Positions 11,198 to 61,210 of a stretch of DNA of 64,000 nucleotides are shown in pieces (within the stretch, counting starts at the first letter, position 1; every line of letters begins with the position of its first letter). The DNA lies in NCBI RefSeq assembly GCF_007923255.1, contig NZ_VOHJ01000017.1, positions 1 to 64,000 on the forward strand, given 5' to 3'. The position numbers were made by a program, and so were the translations under genes. The notes under the pieces are model-generated. The model made no database searches, was not told where the DNA came from, and saw only the letters and a program-made list of their open reading frames with translations. The stretch is from Vulcaniibacterium thermophilum (GTDB taxonomy: Bacteria > Pseudomonadota > Gammaproteobacteria > Xanthomonadales > Xanthomonadaceae).

Positions 11198-12100
11198 TTA
11201 CGCGCGCTGCAGTTCGTTCTGAAGCCACTGCCGCAGCGCGGCGATCATCGGCAGCTTGCGCGAGCCCTTCGGCCACACCAGCCAGTACGCGCGCCCGTCT
11301 TGCACGGCGACGTCGAACAGCCGCACCAGCCGGCCGGCGGCGAGGTCGTCGCGCGCCAGCAGTTCGCGGGTGAGCGCGATGCCCTGCCCGCTCACCGCGG
11401 CTTCCAGCAGCAGCGCGGCATCGCCGATCACCAGTCGCGGGTGCGGCTCGGGCCAGTCGAGCCCGGCGGCCCGCAGCCACGGCGTCCACGGTTCGAACGG
11501 ATTGCCGATCAGATCGTCGGGGCGCAGCTCGCGCAGGTTGCGCGGCAGCCGGCCCTGATGGAGGCGCGGGCTGGCGACCGCGAACAGCGTCTCGCGCGCG
11601 AGCAGCGCGCTCTCGGCGCCGTCCCAGTGCCCTTTGCCGTAGCGCACCGCGACGTCGACGCCGTCGTGACGGAAGTCGGCCAGCTCCAGCGTGGCGCGGA
11701 TGTCCAGCGCGATCTCGGGATAGCGCGCATGGAACTGCCCGAGCCGCGGCACCAGCCACTTGAACGCGAACGACGGCAGCAGGCTCAGGTGCAGCGTGCC
11801 GGGACTGCGGCGCTGCGGCGCGCGCTCGACCGCGCTTTCGAGCATGTGCAGCCCCTCGCGGATGCGCGTGGCCATCGCCCGCGCTTGGGCGGTCGGCACC
11901 ATGCGCCGGCCAACGCGGCGGAACAGGGTTTCGCCGAGCAGGGCTTCGAGCTCGCGCAACTGGTGCGAGACCGCGCTCTGGGTCAGCGCCAGCTCCTCGG
12001 CCGCCAGCGTGTAGGACTCGTGCCGCACGGCCGCCTCCAGCGCGCGCAGCGCCTGCAGCGGCGGGGGACGGCGGGGCCCGCTTCCATGAGATGCGCTCAT
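11198..12100 (-). CDS. LysR family transcriptional regulator (GcvA-like)
   Basis: A 300-residue LysR-type regulator. The N-terminal winged helix spans about 14-75, with PLQALRALEAAVRHESYTLA and LTQSAVSHQLRELEALLG, the exact layout of the GcvA/AmpR branch. A periplasmic-binding-protein-like effector domain follows from about 95. It is divergent from the glutathione S-transferase gene at 12180, with about 80 bases between the two starts. This is the arrangement in which LysR proteins usually regulate the neighbour as well as themselves. I could not identify a clear palindromic T-N11-A site in that gap. Confidence 0.91.
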   Translation of the reverse strand: MSASHGSGPRRPPPLQALRALEAAVRHESYTLAAEELALTQSAVSHQLRELEALLGETLFRRVGRRMVPTAQARAMATRIREGLHMLESAVERAPQRRSPGTLHLSLLPSFAFKWLVPRLGQFHARYPEIALDIRATLELADFRHDGVDVAVRYGKGHWDGAESALLARETLFAVASPRLHQGRLPRNLRELRPDDLIGNPFEPWTPWLRAAGLDWPEPHPRLVIGDAALLLEAAVSGQGIALTRELLARDDLAAGRLVRLFDVAVQDGRAYWLVWPKGSRKLPMIAALRQWLQNELQRA

Positions 12101-12179
12101 GGCAGCGAGTATCGCAATTCGCCGCGCTCAGGGCGGGGGCGATCTAGGCTGACCACCGCCTGTCCCCGCTGCCTCCGCC

Positions 12180-12827
12180 ATGTCCCTGACCCTGTTCCAT
12201 TCGCCCGGTGCCTGCTCGATGGCGCCCCATGTCTGCCTCGAGGAAGCCGGCGCCGAGTTCGAGGCGGTGCGCGTGCCGATCCGCGAAGGCGCCCACCTGC
12301 GCCCGGAGTACCTGGCGATCAATCCGCGCGGGCGCGTGCCGGCGCTGAGGATCGGCGAGCGGGTGCTGACCGAGAACCCGGCCGTGCTGACCTGGATCGC
12401 GTTCAACCACCCCGGGGCGGAGCTGCTGCCGGCGACCGACAGCGTCGAGTTCGGCCAGGCGCTGGAATGGATGGCCTGGCTGTCCAGCAGCCTGCACGTC
12501 GCCTATGCGCAGCTATGGCGCACCGCGCGCTTCGTCGGCGAAGGCGCGCCGCCGGCGGTGCTGGCGCCGCTGCAGGCCCAGGGACGCACGCTGATCGAAC
12601 GCCATCACGCGGAGATCGACGCCCGCCTGGAGAACCGCGCGTTCGCGGTCGGCGACCGCTTCGGCGTGGTCGATGCGAACCTGCTGCCGTTCTACCGCTG
12701 GGGCGGCCTGATCGGCCTGGACATGCGCGCCGCCTGCCCGGCCTGGACCGCGCATGCCGAGCGCATGCTGGACCGGCCCGCGGTGCGCCGCGTGCTCGAA
12801 CGCGAGGAGGTGTCGCTGTGGCCCTGA
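12180..12827 (+). CDS. Glutathione S-transferase family protein
   Basis: A 215-residue glutathione S-transferase. The thioredoxin-like N-terminal half starts SLTLFHSPGACSMAPHVCLE and includes NPRGRVPALRIGERVLTEN, with the cis-proline and the acidic residue that contacts glutathione. The helical C-terminal domain starts around residue 88. The N-terminal Cys/Ser arrangement (ACSMAPH) is like that of proteobacterial beta-class enzymes. It is divergent from the LysR gene and overlaps the following oxidoreductase start, so regulator, transferase and reductase probably form one detoxification unit. The true substrate is not known. Confidence 0.92.
   Translation: MSLTLFHSPGACSMAPHVCLEEAGAEFEAVRVPIREGAHLRPEYLAINPRGRVPALRIGERVLTENPAVLTWIAFNHPGAELLPATDSVEFGQALEWMAWLSSSLHVAYAQLWRTARFVGEGAPPAVLAPLQAQGRTLIERHHAEIDARLENRAFAVGDRFGVVDANLLPFYRWGGLIGLDMRAACPAWTAHAERMLDRPAVRRVLEREEVSLWP
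12805..12820 (+). promoter_or_regulatory. Strong ribosome binding site that decides a GTG start
   Basis: AGGAGG at 12805-12810 lies seven bases before a GTG at 12818 that is in frame with the quinone oxidoreductase. It lies inside the end of the transferase gene. The later ATG at 12848 has no comparable site, so the GTG is preferred. Confidence 0.65.
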
Positions 12828-13843
12828 GTTCCCCTCTGCCGACGACCATGCGCGCCATGCGCATCGCCGGGTTCGGCGATCCGCACGAGGTGTTCCAGCC
12901 CGTCGAGCTGCCGGTACCGGCGCCCGGCGCGGGCGAAGTGCTGATCCGCGTCGTCGCCACCAGCGTCAATCCCGCCGACACCAAGATCCGCCGCCACGGC
13001 GGCGCGCTGGCGCCGGTCTCGGGCGTGCTCGGCATGGACGTGGCCGGCATCGTGGCCGCCATCGGCGAGGGCGTGCGCGACTACCGCGTCGGCGATCGCG
13101 TGTTCGGCTGCGCCGGCGGTCTCGGTGCGCTGCAGGGCGCGCTCGCCGAGTTCATGACCGCGGATGTGCGGCTGATCGCGCCGGCCCCGAAGGCGCTGCC
13201 GCTGCGCGAGGCGGCGGCGCTGCCGCTGGTGTCGATCACCGCCTACGAAGGCCTCCTCGACCGCGCCCGCCTGCAGCAGGACGACCACGTGCTGGTGGCC
13301 GCCGCGGTCGGCGGCGTCGGTCACGTCGCGGTGCAGCTCGCGGCCCGCCACGGCGCGCACGTCACCGCGGTGGTATCGAGCACGGAGCGCGCCGCCCTGG
13401 CGCGCAGGCTCGGCGCGCAGGACGTCTCGCTGCGCGGCGAGGAAACCCTCGAGCAGGCCAGCGCCCGCGTCACCGGCGGGCGCGGCTTCGATCTGGTGTT
13501 CGACGCCAGCGGCCTGGACAACTTCGCCGCCGCGTTCGCCGCCGTGCGCCCGCAAGGGCAGGTGGTGACGCTGGTGACGCGCCACACCGTCGATCTCGCG
13601 CCGATGCACGTCAAGGGCCTCAGCCTGCATGCGGTGTTCATGCTGGTGCCGATGATCCACGGCATCGGCCGCGAACGGCACGGCGAAATCCTGCGCGAGA
13701 TCGCGCGCGCGGTCGACGCCGGTGAGCTGCGTCCGGTCGTCGACGCCCACCGCTACCGCCTGCAGGACGTGGCCGCGGCGCACGCGCGTCTCGAGGCCGG
13801 ACAGGCCCACGGCAAGCTCGTGATCGAGGTCGCCGATGGATAG
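12818..13843 (+). CDS. Zinc-independent quinone oxidoreductase / MDR family alcohol dehydrogenase
   Basis: A medium-chain dehydrogenase/reductase of 341 residues if started at the GTG with the good ribosome site, or 331 from the ATG at 12848. VLIRVVATSVNPADTKIR and GMDVAGIVAAIGEGV are the GroES-like N-terminal signature of the NADPH:quinone reductase branch. The structural and catalytic zinc ligands of true alcohol dehydrogenases are absent. VAAAVGGVGHVAVQLA is the nucleotide-binding loop. It overlaps the transferase stop, so the two are coupled. Expected role: NADPH-dependent reduction of quinones or enones. Confidence 0.9.
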   Translation: MALSSPLPTTMRAMRIAGFGDPHEVFQPVELPVPAPGAGEVLIRVVATSVNPADTKIRRHGGALAPVSGVLGMDVAGIVAAIGEGVRDYRVGDRVFGCAGGLGALQGALAEFMTADVRLIAPAPKALPLREAAALPLVSITAYEGLLDRARLQQDDHVLVAAAVGGVGHVAVQLAARHGAHVTAVVSSTERAALARRLGAQDVSLRGEETLEQASARVTGGRGFDLVFDASGLDNFAAAFAAVRPQGQVVTLVTRHTVDLAPMHVKGLSLHAVFMLVPMIHGIGRERHGEILREIARAVDAGELRPVVDAHRYRLQDVAAAHARLEAGQAHGKLVIEVADG

Positions 13844-13910
13844 GCCCGCCGCCCGCTCCCGTCCCGCGCGCCATCGCGCGGCCCCCGCCCACGACACCGG
13901 GATTCCCGCG

Positions 13911-15308
13911 ATGCCCCACCCGCCGCTTCCGCATGCCGACGACTACGCGCCGCTGCTCGAACGCGCGCGGGCGATCGCGCTTGCCTATCTGACGTCGCTG
14001 CGCGAGCGCCCCGCCGCGATCGCCGCGCCGGCGCGCGCGCCCTCGCTGCCCGAGGGCATCGGCATCGACGCCGCGCTCGCGCAGTTCCTCGAGACCATCG
14101 AACCGCACCTGTCCGCCTCGCCCGGCCCGCGCTACTTCGGCTTCGTCACCGGCGGCGCCAACCCGGCCGGGCTCGCCGGCGACTGGCTCGCCAGCGCATA
14201 CGACCAGAACGTCTCCAACGAGGTCGGCTCGATCGCCGCGGACGTCGAACAGCAGACGGTGGCCGCGTTCGCGCGGATGTTCGGCCTCGCGCCGGACATG
14301 CGCGGCTACTTCGTGTCCGGCGCCACCCAGTCGAACACGGTGGCGATGGCCACCGCGCGCCAGTGGGCCTACCAGAAGCTCGGCCGCGACGTCGCCGAGG
14401 ACGGCCTGGCCGGCGCGCCGCCGATCGCGGTCCTGGGCGGCGCGCCGCATTCCAGCCTCGGCAAGGCGCTGTCGGTGCTCGGCATCGGTCGCGGCAGCAT
14501 CGAGAAGGTGCCCTGCCTGCCCGGCCGCACCGCGGTCGACCCCGACGCGATGGCGCGCCGGCTGGCGCAGCGCGACGGCCGCCCGAAGATCGTGCTGGCG
14601 AGCGCCGGCGAAGTGAACACCGGCGACTTCGACGACATCGCCGCGCTCGCCGACCTGTGCCGCGCGCACGACGCCTGGCTGCACGTCGACGGCGCGTTCG
14701 GCCTGTTCGCCGCGCTCGATCCGGCGCGCCAGCACCTGCTCGCCGGCATCGACCGCGCCGACTCGGTGACGGCCGACCTGCACAAGTGGCTCAACGTGCC
14801 CTACGACAGCGCGCTGATCTACACCCGCCATCCGGCGTTGCAGCGGCAGGTGTTCCGCGCCGCCTCGGCCTACCTCGGCGATTCGCCCGATCCGCTGCAC
14901 CATGTGCCGGAGAACTCGCGCCGCTTCCGCGCGCTGCCGGCGTGGCTCACGCTCGCCGCCTACGGGCGCGCCGGCATCGCCGACTGGGTGGTGCGCAACT
15001 GCGCGATCGCCGGCCGGATCGGCGAAGGCCTGAAGGCGATGCCGGGCGTCGAGCTGCTCGACGAGGTACGCCTGAACATCGTCTGCTTCGCGCTGCGCGA
15101 CGGCGACATCGCGCGCCGCGACGAATTCCTCGACCGCATCACCGCCGACGGCCGCGCCTTCATGAGCCCCACGGTGCTGTTCGACCGGCCGGGCGTGCGT
15201 ATCGCGGTATCGAACTGGATGACGGACGCCCACGACGCCGGGATCGCGCTGGCGGCGGTGCGCGACGCGCTGGCGGCGGTGCGCGACGCGCTGGCGGCGA
15301 TGGCCTGA
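13911..15308 (+). CDS. PLP-dependent group II amino acid decarboxylase
   Basis: A 465-residue fold-type I enzyme of the aromatic-amino-acid/glutamate decarboxylase group. The cofactor lysine is Lys292 in TADLHKWLNVPYD. HVDGAFG carries the aspartate that pairs with the pyridine nitrogen, and FVSGATQSNTVAM is the phosphate-binding region. The substrate (aromatic amino acid, glutamate or another) cannot be read off. I start it at MPHPPLPH. An upstream in-frame ATG at 13836, overlapping the previous stop, would add 25 basic, Pro/Ala-rich residues and cannot be excluded. The C-terminus contains a short in-frame tandem duplication. Confidence 0.88.
   Translation: MPHPPLPHADDYAPLLERARAIALAYLTSLRERPAAIAAPARAPSLPEGIGIDAALAQFLETIEPHLSASPGPRYFGFVTGGANPAGLAGDWLASAYDQNVSNEVGSIAADVEQQTVAAFARMFGLAPDMRGYFVSGATQSNTVAMATARQWAYQKLGRDVAEDGLAGAPPIAVLGGAPHSSLGKALSVLGIGRGSIEKVPCLPGRTAVDPDAMARRLAQRDGRPKIVLASAGEVNTGDFDDIAALADLCRAHDAWLHVDGAFGLFAALDPARQHLLAGIDRADSVTADLHKWLNVPYDSALIYTRHPALQRQVFRAASAYLGDSPDPLHHVPENSRRFRALPAWLTLAAYGRAGIADWVVRNCAIAGRIGEGLKAMPGVELLDEVRLNIVCFALRDGDIARRDEFLDRITADGRAFMSPTVLFDRPGVRIAVSNWMTDAHDAGIALAAVRDALAAVRDALAAMA
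15246..15302 (+). repeat. 21-base in-frame tandem duplication at the decarboxylase C-terminus
   Basis: Two perfect 21-base units encode ALAAVRD twice and are followed by a 15-base partial third copy (ALAAM). The unit length is a multiple of three, so copy number changes would lengthen or shorten the final helix without a frameshift. Confidence 0.85.
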
Positions 15309-25544: not shown

Positions 25545-26136
25545 GCCTGTCCCCCTGTGCGGCACCCACGGACTCAGCCGGGGTGCGATGTTCATCTTGC
25601 CCCCGTCGGAGCGGCCACGAACCCGACCGCGCCCACGGTTCCTCGTGACGCAATGCAGCAACCGCGTCCTGCATCGCCCGCCCGGCCCGGCCCGGCGGCA
25701 CGCTTTCCAAGGCCATGCAAGTTCCGTTCCAGGCCGGCAGCGGTCCGCTCGAGGCGGCGGCTGCCGTGCGGCGCCGAAGTATGGCTTTTTGCCACGGATT
25801 TACACCGATGAGCACGGACAGAAGGCGACTCGGGAAAGGCCTTATCCGCGTTCATCCGCGTTGAGCCGTGGCGCAAGGCATCGCGTCCCGGGCGCGATCG
25901 ATTCGGCGGCAGCGCGCAGCGCGGATGCAAATTCGACCGCAAGCGCAGCTCCTTCACCCGCTGTGTGGCGCCCCGCGCCCGCGCTTTCAATCGGCGTGCG
26001 CCGCAACGGTCACTTGCCGTACAGCGGCGGAAGTGGCCCCGCCCGGGGAAGCGGCGCGCGTCAGCGGCAATGGCCGCGATGGCCGCTTGCGGGCGACGAT
26101 GGGGTCGCCGAGCATGCGGCGAGGAGGTGCGTCCGG
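25545..26136. other. Intergenic stretch without a convincing gene
   Basis: About 590 bases between the divergent small membrane protein and the Nudix gene. Several open frames cross it but they are Arg/Pro-rich, lack ribosome sites and overlap each other. Its one clear structure is the inverted repeat at 25791-25872. Confidence 0.55.
25791..25872. repeat. 82-base imperfect inverted repeat (GCCACGGATTT type)
   Basis: The left arm starts GCCACGGATTTACACCGATG and the right arm ends CATCCGCGTTGAGCCGTGGC. The two arms, about 30 bases each, are reverse complements with scattered mismatches around a central GAAGGCGACTCGGGAAAGGC-like loop. It is visibly less GC-rich than the surroundings. The same type of element recurs in intergenic DNA of many Xanthomonadaceae, from memory. 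No coding potential. Confidence 0.7.
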
Positions 26137-26607
26137 ATGCGAGGAACGACGCCGCTCAGCGCGGGAATCCTGCTCTATCGCCGCGATGGCGATGGCCCGC
26201 GCGTGCTGCTCGCGCATCCCGGCGGCCCGTTCTGGCGCACGCGCGATGCCGGCGCATGGTGCGTCCCCAAGGGTGCCGTCGAGCCCGGCGAGAGCGTCGA
26301 ACAGGCGGCGCGCCGCGAGTTCGAGGAGGAACTCGGCGCACCCGCGCCTGCGCGCCTGACGCCGCTGGGCCGCATCCGCCAGCGCGGCGGCAAATGGGTC
26401 GAGGCGTTCGCCGCCGAGGGCGCGTTCGACCCGCGCGCGCTGCGAAGCCTGGAGTTCGAGATGGAATGGCCGCCGCGCAGCGGCCGGCTGGCGCGCTTCC
26501 CGGAAGTGGACCGGGTGGCGTGGTTCACGTTCGCGCAGGCGCGCGAGCGCATCCTGCCCAGCCAGTTGCCGCTGCTGGACCGCCTGCAGGCGCTGCTCCA
26601 GGGCTGA
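26137..26607 (+). CDS. Nudix hydrolase
   Basis: A 156-residue single-domain Nudix protein. The Nudix box GX5EX7REUXEEXGU is complete as GAVEPGESVEQAARREFEEELGA, reported here only by its key residues: Gly-X5-Glu, then Arg-Glu-Phe-Glu-Glu-Glu-Leu-Gly. It binds metal and hydrolyses a nucleoside diphosphate linked to some other moiety. The middle shares GKWVEAFAAEG and EMEWPPRSGR with the NTP-pyrophosphohydrolase-like branch annotated YtkD/MutT-like. AGGAGG nine bases before the ATG fixes the start. The natural substrate is unknown. Confidence 0.9.
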   Translation: MRGTTPLSAGILLYRRDGDGPRVLLAHPGGPFWRTRDAGAWCVPKGAVEPGESVEQAARREFEEELGAPAPARLTPLGRIRQRGGKWVEAFAAEGAFDPRALRSLEFEMEWPPRSGRLARFPEVDRVAWFTFAQARERILPSQLPLLDRLQALLQG

Positions 26608-26650
26608 CGTGCGCGGAAGCGGTGCCTGCGGGCGGGTCGGGATGGCCCGC

Positions 26651-26809
26651 TCAGCGTCCGGCGCGCAGCGCCTTCCAGGAGCGCCAGGCGCCGACCGCGA
26701 TCGCGCCGATCAGCAGCGGCAGCGGCTGGAAGTTGCCGACCGACTGGAAGGTGAGCGCGCCGACGATCATGGCGAGCACGAGAACGATGAGAAGGTCGAG
26801 ACGAGGCAC
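26651..26809 (-). CDS. Small membrane protein, two hydrophobic segments
   Basis: A 52-residue protein starting at GTG (VPRLDLLIVLVLAMIVGALT), with two membrane segments separated by FQSVGNFQP and a basic C-terminus (RSWKALRAGR). An ATG at 26872 would add 21 residues of basic sequence with no membrane character. No family recognised. It is included because the two hydrophobic segments and positive-inside ends look like a real protein rather than a chance frame. Confidence 0.45.
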   Translation of the reverse strand: MPRLDLLIVLVLAMIVGALTFQSVGNFQPLPLLIGAIAVGAWRSWKALRAGR

Positions 26810-26872
26810 CGGGGTGTGTCCTGTTCGCAAGGCTGGAAACGCGCCGCGGCGGAAGTCGCCCCGGCGTGCCAT

Positions 26873-27166
26873 CGGAAGGCGATCGGTGTGCGACCGCTCC
26901 GCACACGTCAGCGGCCGCCTTCACGCGATCTGAAGGTTTCCCGGACGAACGGCGGCGCGCCTCGCGGCGCGCCGGGCGGTGCCCGGGCCGAGGGTATTCT
27001 GCATCAGCGCATGGGCGCGTCGAGCCGCGCGTGGAGCCGGCGTGAAGCGCGAATCCCCCGGCGTTCAGGCTGGGCTGCGAAGCCGCGCACGAGGCGACTG
27101 GACAGGCCGCGGACGACCTGCCTCGGGCACCCGTTCCGATCGCGCGCGGCGCCGCGCGAGGGCCTG
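26873..27166. other. Intergenic stretch, nothing recognised
   Basis: About 290 bases downstream of the histidine kinase gene. I see no gene, promoter match or terminator hairpin with a T-run. Confidence 0.5.
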
Positions 27167-28453
27167 TCAGCGCGCGTCCGCCCCGGCGGCGTGCGGCTGG
27201 CGCACCGGCAGCACCACGCGGAACGTCGTGCCCTTGCCCGGCGCGCTGTCGACCTCGATGCGGCCGTGGTGCTTGGCGACGATGCCGTAGGAAATCGACA
27301 GCCCCAGACCGCTGCCACGCCCCACCGGCTTGGTGGTGAAGAACGGATCGAAGATGCGCGGCAGCACCGCATCGGGAATGCCCTCGCCGTCGTCGCGGAT
27401 CGACACCCACACGTCCTCGCCCTCGTGCCCGGTGGCGATCTCGATGTGGCCGCGCTCGGCGATCGCCTGCCCGGCGTTGACCAGGATGTTCATGAACACC
27501 TGGTTGAGTTCGGACGGCAGGCATTCGACCAGCGGCAACTGGCCGTAGTGCTTCTCCAGCCGCACCTTGTACTTGAGCTCGTTCCAGACGATGTTGAGCG
27601 TGCTGTCCAGGCCCTTGTGCAGATCGGCCATCACCCACGATTCGCCGCGGCCGGCGTGGGAGAAGTCCTTCAGGTCCTGCACGATCTTGGTCACGCGCTC
27701 GATGCCTTCGCGCGATTCGGCCACCAGTTCGGGCAGGTCGCGCAGCATGAAGTCGAGGTCGAAACGCGCGCGCAGGTCGGCGATCTCGGTCGCCGCCTCG
27801 GCCTCGCTGCCCGGCGGCAGCACGCGCTCGTAGGCGTGCAGCAGGGTCAGCAGGTTGCGCAGGTACTCCTGCAGGGTGGCGAGATTGGAGTTGACGTAGC
27901 CGATCGGGTTGTTGATCTCGTGCGCGACGCCGGCGGCGAGTTGGCCGATCGAGGCCATCTTCTCCGACTGCAACAGTTGCTCCTGCGCGCCGGCCAGCCG
28001 CAGGTAGGCCTGCTGCAGTTCGGCGTGGCGGCGCTGCAGTTCCTCCTCGCGCTGCTGCATCACGGTGACGTCGCGCAGCAGCAGGCAGCGCGAGCGGCCG
28101 CCGTCCTCGCCCTCGCCGAGCGGGATCTCGGTGACCTGCAGCGTGCAGCGCTCGCCGGCGGCGGAGGTGAGGGTCACGGTGGCGTGGCGGTTGCTCGGCT
28201 CGCCGTTGTCCAGCCGCAACGGCAGCAGCGCCATCAGGCGCTCGCCGCAGCGTTCGTCGGGCGGCTGCCCTTCCAGCAGTTCGAGCAGGCGGTGCGCGGC
28301 CGGGTTGGCGTAGGTCGGGGCCGGCGGCTGCAGCACGATCAGCGCATCGTCCAGACGCTGGGCGAGCGCGTAGAGGTCGCGGCCCAGACGGGACCGGGCG
28401 GGATTGCGGCGTTCGGTGAGGACCACGATGGGCGAGACGGTGCCGGTGCTCAT
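27167..28453 (-). CDS. PAS-domain sensor histidine kinase of the flgM operon
   Basis: A 428-residue soluble kinase. A PAS-like region (about 25-135, including DALIVLQPPAPTYANPAA) is followed by a coiled coil (MQQREEELQRRHAELQQAY) and the phosphoacceptor His178 in AAGVAHEINNPIGYV. The ATPase domain has an N-box (LNQVFMNILVNAGQAI), DDGEGI and FDPFFTTKPVGRGSGLGLSI. No membrane segment is present, as in FleS and NtrB. It starts 13 bases after flgN and so lies in the flgM-flgN transcript, downstream of the sigma-28 promoter. No partner regulator is adjacent; VemR or the NarL-type regulator elsewhere in the cluster are candidates. Confidence 0.9.
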   Translation of the reverse strand: MSTGTVSPIVVLTERRNPARSRLGRDLYALAQRLDDALIVLQPPAPTYANPAAHRLLELLEGQPPDERCGERLMALLPLRLDNGEPSNRHATVTLTSAAGERCTLQVTEIPLGEGEDGGRSRCLLLRDVTVMQQREEELQRRHAELQQAYLRLAGAQEQLLQSEKMASIGQLAAGVAHEINNPIGYVNSNLATLQEYLRNLLTLLHAYERVLPPGSEAEAATEIADLRARFDLDFMLRDLPELVAESREGIERVTKIVQDLKDFSHAGRGESWVMADLHKGLDSTLNIVWNELKYKVRLEKHYGQLPLVECLPSELNQVFMNILVNAGQAIAERGHIEIATGHEGEDVWVSIRDDGEGIPDAVLPRIFDPFFTTKPVGRGSGLGLSISYGIVAKHHGRIEVDSAPGKGTTFRVVLPVRQPHAAGADAR

Positions 28454-28466
28454 CGCATCGTACACG

Positions 28467-28802
28467 TCATCCGTAGCCGAGGACGCGCGAACGCGGCTGG
28501 ACGGCCATGCGGCCGCGGACGTCGTAGCCGGTCTCGGCTTCGACGCGGCCCAGGTGACGCAGCGCCCAGCGCACCTCGCGCTGGCGGCGGGCCAGCAGCG
28601 CGCCGTTGGCGCGGTTGAGCTCGGCCAGTTCGGCGATGCGCTCGCGCGCCTCGACCGGCGGGTCGGCCTCCAGCGCGGCGAGCGCCTCGACCTTGGCGCG
28701 GTTGGCATCGATCAGCGCGGCCGCGTCGCGCGCGATCAGCGCCTCGCGCTCGGCCTTCAGGGCCGCCGCGAGGGCATCGAGCCAGGCCGCGCCGTCGCTC
28801 AT
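28467..28802 (-). CDS. flgN: FlgN-type flagellar export chaperone
   Basis: A 111-residue helical protein. The heptad-rich middle (LKAEREALIARDAAALIDAN and EALAALEADP) matches the FlgN family, chaperones of the hook-filament junction proteins FlgK and FlgL. It directly follows flgM with an ATGA overlap, the usual genomic arrangement. Sequence conservation in FlgN is low, so position carries much of the weight. Confidence 0.85.
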   Translation of the reverse strand: MSDGAAWLDALAAALKAEREALIARDAAALIDANRAKVEALAALEADPPVEARERIAELAELNRANGALLARRQREVRWALRHLGRVEAETGYDVRGRMAVQPRSRVLGYG

Positions 28803-29110
28803 CCGCCGAGCTCCTGTTCGAGCTGGATCATGCGCGAAGCGATCGCCTGCGGATCGATGCGGTAGGCGCCCGACTCGATGGCGCTGCGCACCGCGTCGAC
28901 CTTGGCCAGGTCCATCGCCGGGTTCTGCGCCAGCTCCTGCTGCAACTGGGCCAACTCGGCGGCCTCGCCGGTGAAGCGGGCGCTGTCGGCGGCGACGGGG
29001 CCTGCGACCGGCGCGCCGCCGCTGGCGGGCGCGCGGGTGCCGGCGGGCTCGGTGGCGAGCCGGGCCGGCGGGGCGACGCCTGCGCCGACGCCGTCGATCT
29101 TGTGAGCCAT
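28799..29110 (-). CDS. flgM: Anti-sigma-28 factor FlgM
   Basis: A 103-residue protein with a disordered Ala/Pro/Gly-rich N-terminal half and the conserved C-terminal sigma-binding region VDAVRSAIESGAYRIDPQAI followed by ASRMIQLEQEL. FlgM holds FliA inactive until it is exported through the finished hook-basal body. It has its own sigma-28 promoter 91 bases upstream, giving the known autoregulatory loop, and overlaps flgN by four bases. Confidence 0.94.
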   Translation of the reverse strand: MAHKIDGVGAGVAPPARLATEPAGTRAPASGGAPVAGPVAADSARFTGEAAELAQLQQELAQNPAMDLAKVDAVRSAIESGAYRIDPQAIASRMIQLEQELGG

Positions 29111-29200
29111 GACAGGGTGCTCCTGTGAAGGGTTCGGTCCGGATAGCGGCCTGCGGTGCGGGAACTTGAGCGCCCCTGCCTCCGTCTGCCTTGACGCCCG

Positions 29201-29228
29201 TTATCGGCGTCCCCGTTGACGAACTTTA
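29201..29228 (-). promoter_or_regulatory. Sigma-28 (FliA) promoter of flgM-flgN-kinase
   Basis: On the minus strand: TAAAGTTC, 12 bases, GCCGATAA. The -35 matches 7 of 8 and the -10 matches 8 of 8 positions of the flagellar sigma-28 consensus, with spacing one base above the norm. It lies between flgA and flgM, giving flgM a late promoter independent of flgA. The leader is about 85 bases. Confidence 0.88.
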
Positions 29229-29249
29229 ACGCGCGAAGGCGGATGGCCT

Positions 29250-29933
29250 TCAGCGCGCGGTCACTTCCGCCTCCCCTGCCCCCCGCGCGCGCGCCTGGAC
29301 GATGCGGCGGGTGGCGAGATTCTCGACGTTGACCCGGTCGCCGGGCGCCGCGTCGCCGAGCGCGCGGCCTTCGGCGCGGACCTCGATGCCGCCGGCGCGC
29401 GCGATCAGCGCCACGGCGTCGCCGCGGCGGATCACCGGCGCGGCGGCGAGGTCGCGCGCGGTCAGCACGGTGCCCGGCACCAGCAGGCGCCGCGCAAGCT
29501 GGCCGACCGCCTGCGCCGGATCGCTCAGCCCCGGGCTGGCGAGGCCGGCGACTTCGCGCGTTTCGACCGCCAGCGCCTCGGCCGGCACCGGCGCGCCGGG
29601 CGCGACCGGCTGGCGCACCACCAGCACCGGCACGCTGCGCCGCACCCGCACCGGCACGTAGAGCCGCCAGGCGGGCGCGGCGCAGCGCACCTCGACCGTG
29701 CCCGGACGCGCCGGCGCCGCCTGCAGCGCCTGCGGACAGGCGGGCAGGCGCAGACGGTCGTCGACGAGGGCTTCGACCGTCGTGCCGGGGGCGCCGGCGT
29801 CGGGCACGGCCGCCACCACGGCGGCGCGGATGGCCGCCACCGGGTGATGGCCCGCGCCCTGCTGGGCGCCGACGTCCAGCGGCGTCGTCGGCGCGAGGAG
29901 CGCAAGCAGCAGCAGAGCGAGGACGCGGGCCAT
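29250..29933 (-). CDS. flgA: Flagellar basal body P-ring formation protein FlgA
   Basis: A 227-residue periplasmic protein with a signal peptide (ARVLALLLLALLAPTTPLDVGA) and the C-terminal SAF domain: PVAPGAPVPAEALAVET, then VLTARDLAAAPVIRRGDAV and GDRVNVENLATRRIVQARA. FlgA chaperones FlgI during P-ring assembly. The only plausible start is the ATG at 29933, since the signal peptide begins there. A sigma-54 promoter match lies so close that the message would have almost no leader. It is divergent from cheV across a repeat-filled 400-base gap. Confidence 0.92.
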   Translation of the reverse strand: MARVLALLLLALLAPTTPLDVGAQQGAGHHPVAAIRAAVVAAVPDAGAPGTTVEALVDDRLRLPACPQALQAAPARPGTVEVRCAAPAWRLYVPVRVRRSVPVLVVRQPVAPGAPVPAEALAVETREVAGLASPGLSDPAQAVGQLARRLLVPGTVLTARDLAAAPVIRRGDAVALIARAGGIEVRAEGRALGDAAPGDRVNVENLATRRIVQARARGAGEAEVTAR

Positions 29934-29944
29934 GCGGGCGGGTC

Positions 29945-29961
29945 TGCAAGGGGTGTGCCGG
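29945..29961 (-). promoter_or_regulatory. Sigma-54 promoter of flgA
   Basis: On the minus strand the sequence reads CGGCACACCCCTTGCAG, with GG (-24) and GC (-12) exactly ten bases apart, as in the RpoN consensus TGGCACG-N4-TTGCW. The predicted transcription start falls within one or two bases of the flgA ATG. A heptamer array ends 11 bases upstream. Confidence 0.75.
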
Positions 29962-29971
29962 GTTGGGGGGC

Positions 29972-30091
29972 GGGAATCGGGAATCGGGAATCGGGAATCG
30001 GGAATCGGGAATCGGGAATCGGGAATCGGGAATGGGGAATGGGGAATGGGGAATGGGGAACGGGAAGCGGGAGGTGGAACGGGGAGCGGGG
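29972..30091. repeat. Heptamer array upstream of flgA (GGGAATC)n
   Basis: Eight perfect GGGAATC units (29972-30027), four GGGAATG units, then degenerate GGGAACG/GGGAGCG-like units. The G-rich strand is the plus strand, so the C-rich strand is sense for flgA. Triplets of G with four-base spacers fit the G-quadruplex pattern. A chance reading frame through it (GNRESGI repeats) is not a gene. Confidence 0.92.
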
Positions 30092-30123
30092 CGGGGTGAG
30101 GGAAAAGCTCACCGGCTTTCACT

Positions 30124-30151
30124 CCCTCTCCCCCACCCGTGGGGGAGAGGG
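30124..30151. repeat. Perfect palindromic repeat between flgA and cheV
   Basis: CCCTCTCCCCCAC and GTGGGGGAGAGGG form a 13-base perfect inverted repeat with a two-base centre, followed by GTGGGGTGAGG. The same element recurs at 31.3-31.7 kb and 60.7-61.1 kb. Here it sits midway between two heptamer arrays that point outwards to flgA and cheV. Confidence 0.85.
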
Positions 30152-30225
30152 TGGGGTGAGGGGGGAACGAAGCGACGCATCGCCACACGCGCGCATCGCC
30201 CGGTAGCCCGGGGCATCCTTCCCCG

Positions 30226-30301
30226 CCTCCCGCCTCCCGCCTCCCGACTCCCGACTCCCGACTCCCGATTCCCGATTCCCGATTCCCGACTCCCGATCCC
30301 C
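30226..30301. repeat. Heptamer array upstream of cheV (CTCCCGA/TTCCCGA)n
   Basis: About eleven seven-base units, shifting from CCTCCCG through CTCCCGA to TTCCCGA. The C-rich strand is the plus strand, which is the sense strand for cheV. The array ends three bases before the -35 of the sigma-28 promoter. Confidence 0.9.
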
Positions 30302-30303
30302 GC

Positions 30304-30330
30304 TCAAGACTCCCGGCGCGCGGCCGATCA
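30304..30330 (+). promoter_or_regulatory. Sigma-28 (FliA) promoter of cheV
   Basis: TCAAGACT, 11 bases, GCCGATCA: 5 of 8 and 7 of 8 positions of the sigma-28 consensus with exact spacing. The expected transcription start is at about 30337, directly before the ATG at 30338, so the message would be leaderless or nearly so. Confidence 0.65.
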
Positions 30331-30337
30331 CGCCGTC

Positions 30338-31267
30338 ATGCCGCTCGATCTTCTCGAACGTATCGACCAGCGCACGCGTCTGGCCGGCCACAACCGGCTC
30401 GCGCTGCTGCTGTTCCGTCTGGGCGGACGCCAGCTTTTTGGCGTCAACGTGTTCAAGGTGCAGGAAGTGCTGCGCAAGCCGCGGCTGTTCCCGATGCCGC
30501 ACAGTCCGGCGCAGGTGCTCGGCGCCGCCGATCTGCGCGGCCGCAGCGTGCCGGTGATCGACCTGGCGCAGGCGGTCGGCTTTCCCGAGCCCGATCCGAA
30601 CCCCGACTACCTGATCGTCACCGAGTTCAACCGCAGCGTGCAGGGGTTCCTGGTCAGCGCGGTGGACCGCATCGTCGACATCGACGTGGTCAACGTGCAG
30701 CCGCCGCCGGGGCACGAGGGCGAGTCCAGCCACCTCACCGCGGTCACCCGCCATCACGGCGAGCTGATCCAGATCGTCGACGTGGAGCGCGTGCTGGCCG
30801 AGGTGGCCGGACCCGCGGGGCCGCCGGCGCTGGCGCTGGAGCTGCCGGCGGTGGCGCCCGGCTGCCGCGGCCGGGTGCTGGTGGTGGACGACTCGCGGGT
30901 GGCGCGCGGGCAAATCCAGCGCGTGCTGGAGCAGCTCGGGCTGGAGGCGGTGCTGCTGGCCGATGGCCGGCAGGCGCTGGAGCATCTGCAGTCGCTCGCG
31001 GCGCAGGGCGAGGACGTCTGCGCGCGCTATCGGATGGTGATCTCCGACATCGAGATGCCGGCGATGGACGGCTACTCGCTGACGACGGAAATCCGGCGCG
31101 ACCCGCGCCTGGCGGGCCTGTACGTGCTGCTGCACACCTCGCTGTCGGGCATCTTCAACAACGCGATGGTCGAGCGCGTGGGCGCCAACTGCTTCGTCGC
31201 CAAGTACAGCCCGGACGAGCTGGCCCAGCGGGTGATGGCGCGATTGGAGGCGTTGGGGGTGCAGTAG
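30338..31267 (+). CDS. cheV: Chemotaxis coupling protein CheV
   Basis: A 309-residue CheW-REC fusion. The N-terminus IDQRTRLAGHNRLALLLFRL and QLFGVNVFKVQEVLRKP are the CheV signature. The CheW-like domain runs to about 160. The receiver domain from about 178 has VVDDSR at the acidic pocket, the phosphoacceptor Asp237 in VISDIEMPAMDGYS, and the conserved lysine in FVAKYSPDELA. CheV couples chemoreceptors to CheA and adapts through phosphorylation. No ribosome site precedes the ATG, which agrees with a leaderless message from the sigma-28 promoter. Confidence 0.94.
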   Translation: MPLDLLERIDQRTRLAGHNRLALLLFRLGGRQLFGVNVFKVQEVLRKPRLFPMPHSPAQVLGAADLRGRSVPVIDLAQAVGFPEPDPNPDYLIVTEFNRSVQGFLVSAVDRIVDIDVVNVQPPPGHEGESSHLTAVTRHHGELIQIVDVERVLAEVAGPAGPPALALELPAVAPGCRGRVLVVDDSRVARGQIQRVLEQLGLEAVLLADGRQALEHLQSLAAQGEDVCARYRMVISDIEMPAMDGYSLTTEIRRDPRLAGLYVLLHTSLSGIFNNAMVERVGANCFVAKYSPDELAQRVMARLEALGVQ

Positions 31268-31293: not shown

Positions 31294-31340
31294 GGCAAAG
31301 GATGCCCGGTTACCGGGCGGTGCGCGCGCGTAGCGGCGCG

Positions 31341-31667
31341 TCGCTTCGTTGCCCCCTCACCCCAACCCTCTCCCCCGCGAGCGGGGGAGAGGGAGCGAAA
31401 GGCGGACTCGCCCTGCTGCCGCGCTCCAGGACGGGCTGAGTTCTCGACGGGCAGGCCGTCGGAGCCGCGTCGCTTCGTTGCCCCCTCACCCCAACCCTCT
31501 CCCCCGCGAGCGGGGGAGAGGGAGCGAAAGGCGGACTCGCCTGCTGCCGCGCTCCAGGACCGGACTGAGTTCTCGACGGGCAGGCCGTCGGAGCCGCGTC
31601 GCTTCGTTGGCCCCCTCACCCCAACCCTCTCCCCCGCGAGCGGGGGAGAGGGAGCGAAAGGCCGGCT
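31341..31667. repeat. 129-base tandem repeat with palindromic core, about 2.5 copies
   Basis: Units begin TCGCTTCGTTGCCCCCTCAC at 31341, 31470 and 31599 (period 129; the third copy is partial). Each holds a perfect 13-base inverted repeat, CCCTCTCCCCCGC, GA, GCGGGGGAGAGGG. The rest of the unit (CGGGCTGAGTTCTCGACGGG and neighbours) is nearly identical between copies. There is no open frame with a ribosome site. Confidence 0.92.
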
Positions 31668-31672
31668 CCCGC

Positions 31673-31757
31673 GTTCCCCCGCTCCCCGCTCCCCGTTCCC
31701 CGCTCCCCGTTCCCCGCTCCCCGTTCCCCGTTCCCCGTTCCCCGTTCCCCGCTCCCC
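31673..31757. repeat. Heptamer array upstream of flgB (CCCCGCT/CCCCGTT)n
   Basis: About twelve seven-base units alternating CCCCGCT and CCCCGTT, with the C-rich strand sense for flgB. The array ends 26 bases before the sigma-54 promoter match; the gap between is also C-rich (CCCTCCCCCGCCCCCACCCC). Confidence 0.9.
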
Positions 31758-31782
31758 TCCCCCGCCCCCACCCCCACCCCTC

Positions 31783-56076: not shown

Positions 56077-56733
56077 GTGCGCGTCCTTCTCGCCGACGAT
56101 CACACCCTCGTCCGCGCCGGCATCCGCCGGCTGCTGGAATCGTTCGGGGACATCGAGGTGGTCGCCGAGGCCCGCAGCGGGCGGGAAACGCTGGAGCTGG
56201 CGCATCTGCACCGCCCCGACGTCGCCGTGCTGGACCTGTCGATGCCCGAGGGCAACGGCCTGGAGACCACCGCGCGCCTGCGCGAGCAGTTGCCCGGCAT
56301 CGCGGTGGTGATCATGTCCATGCACGCCGACCTCGCCCACGTGCGCGAGGCGCTGGACCGCGGCGCGCGCGGCTTCGTGGTGAAGGACGGCGCGGTCGCC
56401 GAGCTGGAACTGGCGCTGCGCGCGGCCATCGCCGGGCAGACGTTCCTGAGCCCGGAAGTGTCCGGCCGCATGGTCAACTCGTTCATGCGCGGCAGCCCGC
56501 GCAACGAGCTGGAGTCGCTCTCCCCACGCCAGCGCGAGATCCTGCTGCGCATCGGGCGCGGCGAATCGACCAAGGAGATCGCCGCCGCGCTCGGCATCAG
56601 CGTCAAGACGGTGGAGACCCACCGCACGCGCATGATGGAGACGCTCGGCTGCCGGCGCGCGCCCGAACTGCTGAGGCTGGCGATCCGCCACGCCCGGGAG
56701 CTGCAGCCCGACGACGGAACGCCGTCGCTGTAA
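56077..56733 (+). CDS. NarL/FixJ-type response regulator
   Basis: A 218-residue two-domain regulator starting at GTG. The receiver has LLADDHTLVRAGIRRLL and the phosphoacceptor Asp53 in VAVLDLSMPEGNG. The C-terminal LuxR helix-turn-helix has LSPRQREILLRIGRGESTKE and SVKTVETHRTRMMETL. No sensor kinase is adjacent. Its position just upstream of rpoN suggests a role in motility control; the kinase in the flgM operon is a possible partner. Confidence 0.9.
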   Translation: MRVLLADDHTLVRAGIRRLLESFGDIEVVAEARSGRETLELAHLHRPDVAVLDLSMPEGNGLETTARLREQLPGIAVVIMSMHADLAHVREALDRGARGFVVKDGAVAELELALRAAIAGQTFLSPEVSGRMVNSFMRGSPRNELESLSPRQREILLRIGRGESTKEIAAALGISVKTVETHRTRMMETLGCRRAPELLRLAIRHARELQPDDGTPSL

Positions 56734-56841: not shown

Positions 56842-58233
56842 ATGAAGACGACGCTGAAAGCGCAGATGAGCCAGCAGATTGCGATGACGCCGCAACTGCT
56901 GCAGTCCATCCGTCTGCTTCAGCTGGATTCGCTGCGGCTGGAGCAGGAAGTGCGCCGCATGCTCGAGCGCAATCCGCTGCTGGAGCAGGAGGAGGACGAG
57001 GAGGACGTCGTCGCCGAGGACACCAATCCGCGCGCGGTGATCGACGAGGACGAACCGGACTACGCCTGGGAGCGCGGCGCGCACGCCGGCGGCGGCGGCG
57101 AGGACGAGGATGCGATGGCGCGCGTGGCCGACCGTCCGCATGGCGATTTCCGCGCCGCCCTGCTCGAGCAGTTCGCGCTGGAGTGCCGGGCGCCGTCCGA
57201 ACTCGCGCTCGCCGCGCTGGTGCTCGATCACACCGACGACAACGGCTACCTGGAAGTGCCGGTGGCCGAACTGGCCGCGCTCGCCCGCGCGCAGGGCCTC
57301 GACGCCGACGCGCTGGAGACGGTGCGCCAGCGCGTGATGCGGCTGGAGCCGGCCGGCTGCGGCGCGGCCGATCTTTCCGAATGCCTGCGCGCGCAGCTCG
57401 ATGGGCGCGACGGCGTGGACCCGCTGGCCCACGCCATCGTCCGCAGCCACCTCGCGCTGCTGGCCGCGCACGACCTGCCCGCCCTCGCCGCCGCGCTCGG
57501 CGTGGACCGCGATCGCGCGGCGGCGGCGGTCGATCGGGTGCTGGCGCTCGACCCGCGTCCGGCCAGCGGCTGGGGAGCCGCGGAGGATGCGGTCGTGGTG
57601 CCTGATGTGGTGGTGCGCAAGCAGGACGGCCAGTGGCGGGTCTCGCTGAACCCGCGCACGGCCCCGCGCCTGCGCGTGAACGCGGCCCTCGAGCGCCTCA
57701 TGGGGGAGGCGAACGGGCCCGGCGAGCACGCGGTGATGCGCGAACTGCTGCAGGAGGCGCGCTGGATGGCCCGGGGGGTCGCCATCCGCAACGACACCCT
57801 GCTGCGCGCCACCACCGCCATCGTCGAGCGCCAGCACGGCTTCCTCGAACGCGGCGAGGAGGCGATGGTGCCGCTGACGCTGAAGGAGATCGCCGACGCG
57901 ATCGGCGTGCACGAATCGACCATCTCCCGCGTGTCCACCGGCAAGTACGTGCAGACCCCGCGCGGCACCTTCGAGCTGAAGCACTTCTTCGCCGTGCGCC
58001 TGAACGGCGCCGAGGTCGGCGGCAGCGCGGTGCGCGCGATGGTGCGCAAGCTGATCGACCAGGAGAACCCGGCCGCGCCGCTCGGCGACGACGCCATCGC
58101 CACGCTGCTGGCGCGCCAGGGCATCCGCATCGCGCGCCGCACGGTCGCCAAGTATCGCGACCAGCTGCGCATCCCGCCCGCCAAGGTGCGTGCGCTCACC
58201 GGCAACGGGCGCGGCTACGCGCGCTCAGCCTGA
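56842..58233 (+). CDS. rpoN: RNA polymerase sigma-54 factor (RpoN2-like)
   Basis: A 463-residue sigma-54. Region I is Gln/Leu-rich ([20 protein letters not shown]), followed by an acidic region II ([12 protein letters not shown]). The helix-turn-helix is [20 protein letters not shown] and the RpoN box is intact as [12 protein letters not shown] from residue 431. Its place next to vemR and fleQ matches rpoN2 of Xanthomonas, the copy devoted to flagella. AGAGGGAAG precedes the ATG. It should read the five sigma-54 promoters listed here. Confidence 0.95.
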
Positions 58234-58250
58234 AGGACAAGGACACGACG

Positions 58251-58627
58251 ATGGACAAGGTCACCGTGCTGCTCGTGGACGACCACGAAGGCTTCATCAA
58301 GGCCGCGATCCGCCACCTGCGCCGGATCGAGTGGATCGAGATCGTCGGAGAGGCCTACAACGGGCTGGAGGCGATCGCCAAGTCCGAGCAGTTGCGTCCG
58401 CAGGCGGTGCTGATGGACCTGGCCATGCCCGAGATGGGCGGCCTGCAGGCCTGCCGACTGATCAAGGCCCAGGACGATCCGCCGTTCGTGGCGATCGCCA
58501 GCCATTTCGACGACGCCCAGCACCGCGAGCACGCCGCGCGCGCCGGTGCCGATGCGTTCGTCAGCAAGCTCACCTACGTGCACGACGTGCTGCCGTTGCT
58601 CGAAGCCCTGCGTACCGGAGGCCGGTC

Positions 58628-58631
<4 letters not shown>
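58251..58631 (+). CDS. vemR: Single-domain response regulator VemR
   Basis: A 126-residue stand-alone receiver: [20 protein letters not shown] with acidic residues Asp10 and Asp11, phosphoacceptor Asp56 in [13 protein letters not shown], and Lys106 in AFVSKLTYV. The place between rpoN and fleQ is that of VemR in Xanthomonas, which works with FleQ and RpoN2 in motility and virulence. It overlaps fleQ by ATGA, so a stoichiometric partnership is plausible. Confidence 0.88.
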
Positions 58632-60079
<1,448 letters not shown>

Positions 60080-60121
60080 GGGTCGGGAGAGCGGTTCCCC
60101 GTCGCCACGCCGCCCCGAGCT

Positions 60122-60560
60122 CGTCATCCCCACGCAAGCCCGTAGGGCGGGACTTGTCCCGCCATCGCACGCCGCGCCACTGCCGATGCCGCGGACGTCC
60201 GTGGGTTCCCGCTTGCGCGGGAACGACGACCGCGACAACCGGCGATCTCCCACGTCGTCATCCCCGCGCAAGCCCGTAGGGCGGGACTTGTCCCGCCATC
60301 GCACGCCGCGCCACTGCCGATGCCGCGCGAACGTCCATGGGTTCCCGCTTGCGCGGGAACGACGACCGCGACAACCGGCGATCTCCCACGTCGTCATCCC
60401 CGCGCAAGCCCGTAGGGCGGGACTTGTCCCGCCATCGCACGCCGCGCCACTGCCGATGCCGCGGACGTCCATGGGTTCCCGCTTACGCGGGAACGACGAC
60501 CGCGACAACCGGCGATCCCCCACGTCGTCATCCCCGCGCAAGCGGGGATCCATGGACGCT
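60122..60560. repeat. Tandem repeat of about 135 bases, 3.3 copies
   Basis: Units begin CGTCATCCCC at 60122, 60256, 60392 and 60526 (periods 134, 136 and 134). Each carries GTAGGGCGGGACTTGTCCCG and a palindrome TTCCCGCTTGCGCGGGAA. The last copy is cut after CGCAAGCGGGGATCC. Copies differ by a few bases, so the duplication is not brand new or is under conversion. No gene. Confidence 0.93.
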
Positions 60561-60690
60561 GGGCGCATCGCGCCACTGCAACCGCTGGCCTGGAACGCCA
60601 GGCGACATGTCGGATTTCCGGCGAGACCTGGATGCCGGGTTTCCGACATCGTGACGGCCCCGCGCTGGCGTCAGGCGAGTCCCGACGCGC

Positions 60691-61070
60691 CTCGTGCCCC
60701 CTCACCCCAACCCTCTCCCCCACTGGCGTGGGGGAGAGGGGGGCTAAAGCACCGCTCCCGCGCAGCGCGACGCGGTTCCGACGCGGCTCGTGCCCCCTCA
60801 CCCCGGCCCTCTCCCCCACTGGCGTGGGGGAGAGGGGGCCGAAACACCGCTCCTGCGCAGCGCGACGCGGTTCCGACGCGGCTCGTGCCCCCTCACCCCA
60901 ACCCTCTCCCCCACTGGCGTGGGGGAGAGGGGGGCTAAAGCACCGCTCCCGCGCAGCGCGATGCGGTTCCGACGCGGCTCGTGCCCCCTCACCCCGGCCC
61001 GACGCGCCTCGTGCCCCCCCCCACCCCAACCCTCTCCCCCACTGGCGTGGGGGAAAGGGGGCTGAAACGT
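60691..61070. repeat. Tandem repeat of about 96 bases with palindromic core, about four copies
   Basis: Units begin CTCGTGCCCCCTCACCCC at 60691, 60787, 60882 and 60978, with a further partial unit at 61008. Each complete unit has CCCTCTCCCCCACTGGCGTG followed by GGGGGAGAGGG, an inverted repeat related to those at 30.1 and 31.3 kb, then a CGCGCAGCGCGACGCGGTTC spacer. Confidence 0.93.
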
Positions 61071-61081
61071 GCTTCCTCGCA

Positions 61082-61200
61082 CTCCCCGCTCCCCGCTCCC
61101 CGCTCCCCGCTCCCCGTTCCCCGCTCCCCGCTCCCCGCTCCCCGCTCCCCGCTCCCCGCTCCCCGCTCCCCGATTCCCGATTCCCGATTCCCGATTCCCG
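61082..61200. repeat. Heptamer array upstream of fliE
   Basis: About thirteen CCCCGCT units (one CCCCGTT) followed by four GATTCCC units, ending 11 bases before the sigma-54 promoter. The C-rich strand is sense for fliE. The junction GATTCCCGCCCCCC is identical to that before the flgA promoter. Confidence 0.93.
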
Positions 61201-61210
61201 CCCCCCGGCG

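Follow-up and report, generated by a model that had tools for sequence, protein, structure and literature searches.

A RavA/PdeK-type histidine kinase encoded at the end of the flgM operon of Vulcaniibacterium thermophilum and its probable connection to VemR and FleQ

The window analysed here is a stretch of 64,000 nucleotides of Vulcaniibacterium thermophilum DNA, in which the last gene of a flgA-flgM-flgN-ravA series encodes a histidine kinase of 428 amino acids (27167..28453, minus strand). Based on sequence comparison, this kinase is orthologous to the Xanthomonas kinase RavA/PdeK; its gene, referred to below as ravA, keeps its place in the flgM operon throughout most of the family and is both retained and lost together with vemR and ravR. 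On balance, it is probable that RavA, timed by sigma-28, feeds back via VemR on FleQ and serves RavR in a second branch. The original prediction had recorded the kinase correctly, but missed its identity as RavA and its second partner, RavR. The identity of the kinase is in itself ordinary; the feedback hypothesis is sharp, testable and, in that sense, useful.

The kinase was described from the outset as soluble. Its highest 19-residue Kyte–Doolittle mean is 0.95, and no hydrophobic or transmembrane-like stretch is present, so the label is a fair one. The HATPase_c catalytic domain (residues 314–418; 27200..27514, minus strand) is clearly recognised by Pfam (E-value, 1.4e-26), while HisKA falls just below the Pfam cut-off (23.9 vs. 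26.9 bits). The phospho-acceptor histidine, His178 (codon at 27920..27922, minus strand), is part of an HEINNP motif, corresponds to His164 of RavA and is invariant in 19 of 19 alignment rows. At the N-terminus, a PAS domain is predicted (residues 18–128; 28070..28402, minus strand). Pfam gave no PAS match for the window protein; of the 22 relatives in the alignment, up to 9 matched Pfam PAS families. A PAS-like N-terminal fold was obtained with AlphaFold both for the full-length kinase (mean pLDDT, 82.5) and for residues 1–135 alone (mean pLDDT, 82.4; pTM, 0.74), and the solved structures closest to the model are LOV and PAS domains (Foldseek E-value, ~1e-5; Z, 10.3, at an rmsd of 2.6 across 107 residues). 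The models therefore predict a PAS fold for the RavA N-terminus, a common fold that says nothing about the ligand.

The assignment to RavA/PdeK is based on phylogeny, gene order and residue numbering. In a kinase tree of 90 rows, from which three rows without the motif were excluded, the kinases of flgM operons and the kinase of genome G052 form one clade (support, 94/91); inside this RavA clade, the tree does not fix the position of the window row. Published marks of the system are a degenerate GSDEM motif and Asp496 in RavR, and His164 in RavA (PMC6707612). When counted from the GTG start, the kinase histidine is residue 164 both in locus L048 and in that of Xanthomonas populi (L059), and the convergent neighbour in L048 is a GGDEF-EAL-REC protein with a GSDEM motif and a phospho-acceptor Asp at position 496. 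PdeK has been reported to be 95.7% identical to XCC1957, and both to adjoin PdeR/RavR (PMC6637768). Thus, the gene order, the convergent ravR in relatives and the residue numbers matching those in print identify the kinase as RavA/PdeK, and the possibility of a novel or orphan kinase was rejected on account of the clade, the neighbour with GSDEM and Asp496, and the His164 numbering. The known system nearest to the window kinase is RavA of X. campestris (XC_2229/XCC1957), which is PdeK of X. oryzae (PXO_01018). Like Xanthomonas RavA, the window kinase belongs to this clade, is encoded after flgN, has the conserved histidine, the HATPase_c domain and the HEINNP motif, and lacks a transmembrane helix. 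It differs from Xanthomonas RavA in that ravR is not its neighbour in the window genome, in that its gene follows flgN after a gap of 13 nt instead of the ~50–160 nt seen in the Xanthomonas loci compared, and in its predicted PAS fold, whereas Xanthomonas RavA is reported to have no recognisable input domain (PMC6707612).

The best NCBIfam match of the kinase is T2SS_HK (NF038348), which covers the catalytic half only (residues 137–418) with 352.6 bits; this is below the curated family cut-off of 450 bits. The FleS/FlgS-type kinases of polar flagellates are cytoplasmic, serve in flagellar gene control and have an adjacent NtrC-type sigma-54 response regulator. The window kinase resembles them in being cytoplasmic and tied to flagellar gene control, and likely feeds the flagellar hierarchy. 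Unlike them, it has no adjacent NtrC-type regulator and is encoded last in a late operon, and the partner proposed for it consists of a receiver domain alone, encoded next to fleQ. No response regulator adjoins the kinase in the window; the closest receiver domain of the contig is found at 30875, in a CheV-like ORF. A paralogous kinase, 42% identical to the catalytic half of RavA, is encoded elsewhere in the same genome (G000:C10:51289-52200; L137), with receiver domains nearby.

The genes preceding ravA on the minus strand are flgN (28467..28802; Pfam FlgN, 1.5e-8), flgM (28799..29110; Pfam FlgM, 3.9e-14), which overlaps flgN by 4 nt, and the upstream gene flgA (29250..29933), with a likely ATG at 29933. 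The ORF coordinates place exactly 13 nt between the flgN stop and the ravA ATG, in agreement with the spacing given originally, and an in-frame GTG sits 1 nt past the flgN stop. A near-perfect sigma-28-type promoter site, TAAAG-N15-GCCGATAA (29201..29228, minus strand), is located between flgA and flgM; it is the single match in the 64 kb window, and 100 shuffles yielded none. Of the 51 loci in which flgM was recognised, 44 have a sigma-28-like site 5' of it, as do 42 of 46 loci in a second scan (500 shuffles, which preserve single-base content only, gave a mean of 0.036 and a largest value of 1); many of these 46–51 loci are near relatives, and at least three contigs among them are doubly named (L035/L057, L036/L056 and L037/L058). 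Between flgM and ravA, a sigma-28-like site was found in none of the 46 loci having both genes, and the search of window positions 26000..30300 revealed neither a sigma-70-like promoter nor a terminator. The claim that the kinase is expressed from the flgM sigma-28 promoter is thus backed by a conserved site and by the lack of a terminator or sigma-70-like promoter in between; judged from the DNA sequence, transcription of ravA from this promoter is likely.

The spacing between flgN and ravA varies across loci from an overlap of 8 nt to a gap of 254 nt. The two genes overlap by 4 nt in 5 of 46 loci, and many relatives have gaps of at least 40 nt; in the wider gaps, an additional promoter is possible. 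Only 2 of the 46 loci have a terminator-like hairpin separating ravA from flgN; in all three loci without ravA that were examined in one genus (g28), such a hairpin lies within ~60 nt after flgN. Sigma-28 timing would be weakened by transcription running on from flgA, or by a promoter inside the broad gaps that separate flgN from ravA in many relatives. A scan for sigma-54 sites remained at chance level (20 found vs. 23.8 expected), with one weak site situated directly upstream of flgA. Several repeat arrays were also observed in the window. Arrays of the heptamers CGGGAAT, CCCGACT, CCCCGCT and CTCCCCG (13–18 copies) occupy positions 29971-30072, 30222-30315, 31677-31769 and 61082-61207, and three of these four surround the flgA-cheV-flgB genes; longer tandem arrays, whose units measure 129, 134 and 96 bases (93–97% matches), are found at 31337-31662, 60121-60543 and 60682-60995.

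The search for ravA in 297 genomes of the family gave 156 matches at 1e-40 (this cut-off and those of 1e-35, 1e-60 and 1e-90 were chosen by hand). The six weakest matches (G099, G107, G119, G127, G198 and G256; E-values, 1e-42 to 1e-55) were counted as ravA-negative, and the 146 ravA genomes are the 150 matches with a position minus four paralogs. The kinases of G166, G224, G289 and G261 were rejected as orthologs, being paralogs away from flagellar genes. In 137 of the 146 ravA genomes, the gene follows the FlgM match on one and the same strand at a distance of 370–1184 nt; the other nine comprise six genomes without a listed FlgM position, one with a split contig and two without FlgM. All three genes, flgA, flgM and flgN, were recognised beside the kinase in 28 of 29 loci, the window's own not counted. 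Among the best 80 of the 586 loci of a GTDB-based scan, at least 12, all of them Lysobacteraceae, encode the kinase beside flagellar genes, and many betaproteobacterial kinases among these listed matches have RavR-like genes instead. For the betaproteobacterial loci, only the presence of a RavR-like gene and the absence of flg genes were used, some distances being unreliable (the measurement for L088 refers to a second match). Such RavR-like neighbours away from flagellar genes suggest that the RavA-RavR pair predates its flagellar location.

Outside the family, an order-wide search found a RavA-like kinase in 14 genomes at 1e-60. Nine of these were checked for vemR, which was present in G318 only; G318 is also the sole one of eight fetched out-of-family kinase loci that lies beside flagellar genes (flgA and flgN). 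It has a convergent ravR, FlgM, and vemR between rpoN2 and fleQ, and the search for the sigma-28 pattern gave no match 5' of its flgM. In G301 and G311, FlgM and a RavA-like kinase are present, with no match for vemR. The view that the locus is limited to one family was rejected, since G318, from another family, has the same order, vemR included.

The candidate partners are encoded on the plus strand of the window, in the order NarL-type, FsnR-like response regulator (56077..56733), rpoN2 (56842..58233), vemR (58251..58631) and fleQ (58628..60079). VemR, the proposed partner, is a single-domain response regulator, and fleQ, the proposed output, overlaps the vemR stop by 4 nt. A HATPase_c search of the whole contig found no further kinase, so both VemR and the NarL-type regulator are without an adjacent kinase, as had been pointed out from the sequence at the start. 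For Xanthomonas, RavA is reported to phosphorylate VemR, which interacts with FleQ and represses flagellar genes (PMC9923393, citing Lin et al. 2022); PMC9218911, citing the same work, likewise names RavA as serving VemR. HpaS (PMC7036368) and CheA (PMC9218911) are described as other phosphate donors of VemR. The original choice of VemR as a target of the kinase agrees with these reports on the Xanthomonas ortholog (PMC9923393, PMC9218911), and with the pattern of co-presence and co-loss.

FlgM was detected in 157 of the 297 family genomes, with its position available for 150 of the 157. Among these 157 genomes, 143 have both ravA and vemR, 13 (spread over five genera) have neither, none has vemR only, and the one with ravA only is G093, a genome that is 75% complete. 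For ravA and ravR, the four counts are identical, the exception being G016, where ravA lies at a contig end. The ravR search gave 156 matches, of which 145 were used; the 11 omitted (eight of genus g42, and G166, G224 and G289) are all FlgM-negative, and none of them was counted as ravA. For the NarL-type gene, the corresponding counts are 123 genomes with both genes, 21 with ravA only, four with the NarL-type gene only and nine with neither. Fisher values of 4e-18 for vemR, 4e-18 for ravR and 5e-5 for the NarL-type gene merely rank the associations, since the counts are not independent of phylogeny. In genus g28, the complete set of four genes is present in eight of the 12 FlgM-positive genomes; the other four lack ravA, vemR and ravR, yet retain the flagellar genes and the NarL-type gene. 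One genome of this genus without ravA, G219, retains rpoN2 and a fleQ match; the stretch between these two gave no match for vemR, and FlhA is present. Such joint losses represent natural experiments, namely genomes with flagellar genes and without ravA, vemR and ravR. The association of RavA with RavR being equally tight, the co-occurrence counts do not single out VemR.

In genome G052, from which FlgM and FlhA are absent, ravR and ravA are convergent, and a NarL-type gene and a vemR-like gene are divergent from ravA; the set is located next to prfC (L038, G052:C7:128000-147900, 11906-14375). Since G052 keeps this set without flagella, RavA can do without the flagellum, and a flagellum-free role of the ravR-ravA-NarL-vemR set is implied by its gene content. 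In G106, another genome without FlhA, a transposase-like frame truncates ravA before the His region (L044, G106:C65:1-8000, 1-1043). In the window's genome, a second FlhA-family export gene (G000:C80:14434-16344; L139; 667 bits) was observed besides the copy on contig C44, and a second export system is likely on this basis.

The most serious alternative is that RavA acts mainly via RavR, through c-di-GMP hydrolysis or phosphate-sink traffic with RavS, while VemR is a side target and the flgM operon merely supplies RavA in motile cells. RavA is reported to phosphorylate RavR at Asp496 in vitro (PMC6707612), 128 of the 146 genomes have a convergent ravR (GGDEF-EAL-REC) no more than 3 kb from ravA, its co-occurrence is as tight as that of vemR, and many betaproteobacterial relatives away from flagellar genes, among the matches listed, carry a nearby RavR-like gene. 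In the window genome, however, a convergent ravR was not found beside ravA, and a NUDIX-domain gene (26128-26607, plus strand) follows ravA where most relatives have ravR. The nearest RavR-like protein is encoded on contig C34 (L136:4966-8652; G000:C34), unlinked to ravA; it has 1228 amino acids, a REC-PAS-PAS-GGDEF-EAL-REC make-up and an AGDEF motif, adjoins a GAF-GGDEF-EAL protein and branches just outside the convergent RavR group. Because this closest relative is unlinked, differs in domain make-up and falls outside the RavR group, the RavR branch in the window genome is uncertain, the C34 protein being only a possible ortholog of RavR. In addition, among the nine out-of-family genomes checked, vemR occurs only where the kinase was seen beside flagellar genes. 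Taken together, RavR as the main outlet of RavA is unlikely.

There is little probability that the NarL-type, FsnR-like protein near rpoN is the cognate regulator. Its gene is found beside ravA and vemR in the flagellum-less G052, and its receiver domain forms the closest pair with that of VemR among the three compared, a comparison that singles out no partner. On the other hand, its Stenotrophomonas counterpart FsnR, a flagellar regulator of the NarL type, is reported to be phosphorylated in vitro by RavS (PMC9600515), the gene is retained in the four g28 genomes from which ravA and vemR are missing, and 21 genomes with ravA gave no match for it at 1e-60, a cut-off that diverged copies may escape. 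The NarL-type regulator, named in the original prediction as a second possible target, was therefore rejected as the main partner on the grounds of the RavS-FsnR link in print and of its retention without ravA. It is also very doubtful that ravA is a passenger, placed by history, with its own constitutive promoter and an output that has no bearing on flagellar assembly. The broad gaps between flgN and ravA in many relatives, the ~1890 copies of RavA per cell reported for Xanthomonas under the conditions tested (PMC6707612) and the retention of ravA in G052 are set against a position kept in 137 of 146 genomes, the 4-nt overlap with flgN in some loci, the lack of a sigma-70-like promoter at window positions 26000..30300 and the joint losses with vemR.

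In the preferred reading, the sigma-28-timed feedback from RavA to FleQ, ravA would share one transcript with flgM and flgN, started at the sigma-28 promoter. Upon completion of the hook-basal body, FlgM would be exported and sigma-28 set free, and the level of RavA should then rise, because ravA shares the flgM promoter. RavA would donate phosphate to VemR, a step reported in Xanthomonas, and phospho-VemR may act on FleQ and damp flagellar transcription, the connection of VemR with FleQ being likewise reported there. Late assembly would in this way report to the top of the hierarchy and close a loop, while a second branch would lead from RavA to RavR, a GGDEF-EAL-REC phosphodiesterase. The suggestion that the kinase reports completion of the hook to an upstream regulator fits this wiring, with FleQ as the regulator upstream. 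The published signs, however, are in conflict. In a ravA mutant, fliC mRNA is reported at 363% and swimming at about two-fold (PMC6707612), whereas loss of vemR lowers motility in X. citri (PMC6637908) and in X. campestris (PMC9923393); deletion of the vemR homolog of X. oryzae is reported not to lower swimming (PMC7970052). The other phosphate donors of VemR and the persistence of the gene set in G052 also speak against the loop.

A more far-reaching form of the feedback reading is put forward tentatively, with less confidence than the loop itself. RavA, RavR and VemR may constitute a single inherited unit in the flagellated members of the family and in at least one genome elsewhere in the order, in which synthesis of the kinase would have to await the completed hook, owing to its place in the flgM operon, and phospho-VemR would restrain FleQ. 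Timed synthesis, and not a ligand, might then be the main signal, with the PAS domain as a second input. The operon link and the joint loss of ravA, vemR and ravR were not found in the literature searched, in an incomplete search, so that they may have been published. According to the published view, RavA belongs to a three-protein c-di-GMP/virulence system that lies close to the flagellar cluster and responds to a stimulus not yet identified. If RavA synthesis is tied to sigma-28, flagellar assembly itself would be part of this signal, and hook completion would be linked to FleQ control and c-di-GMP.
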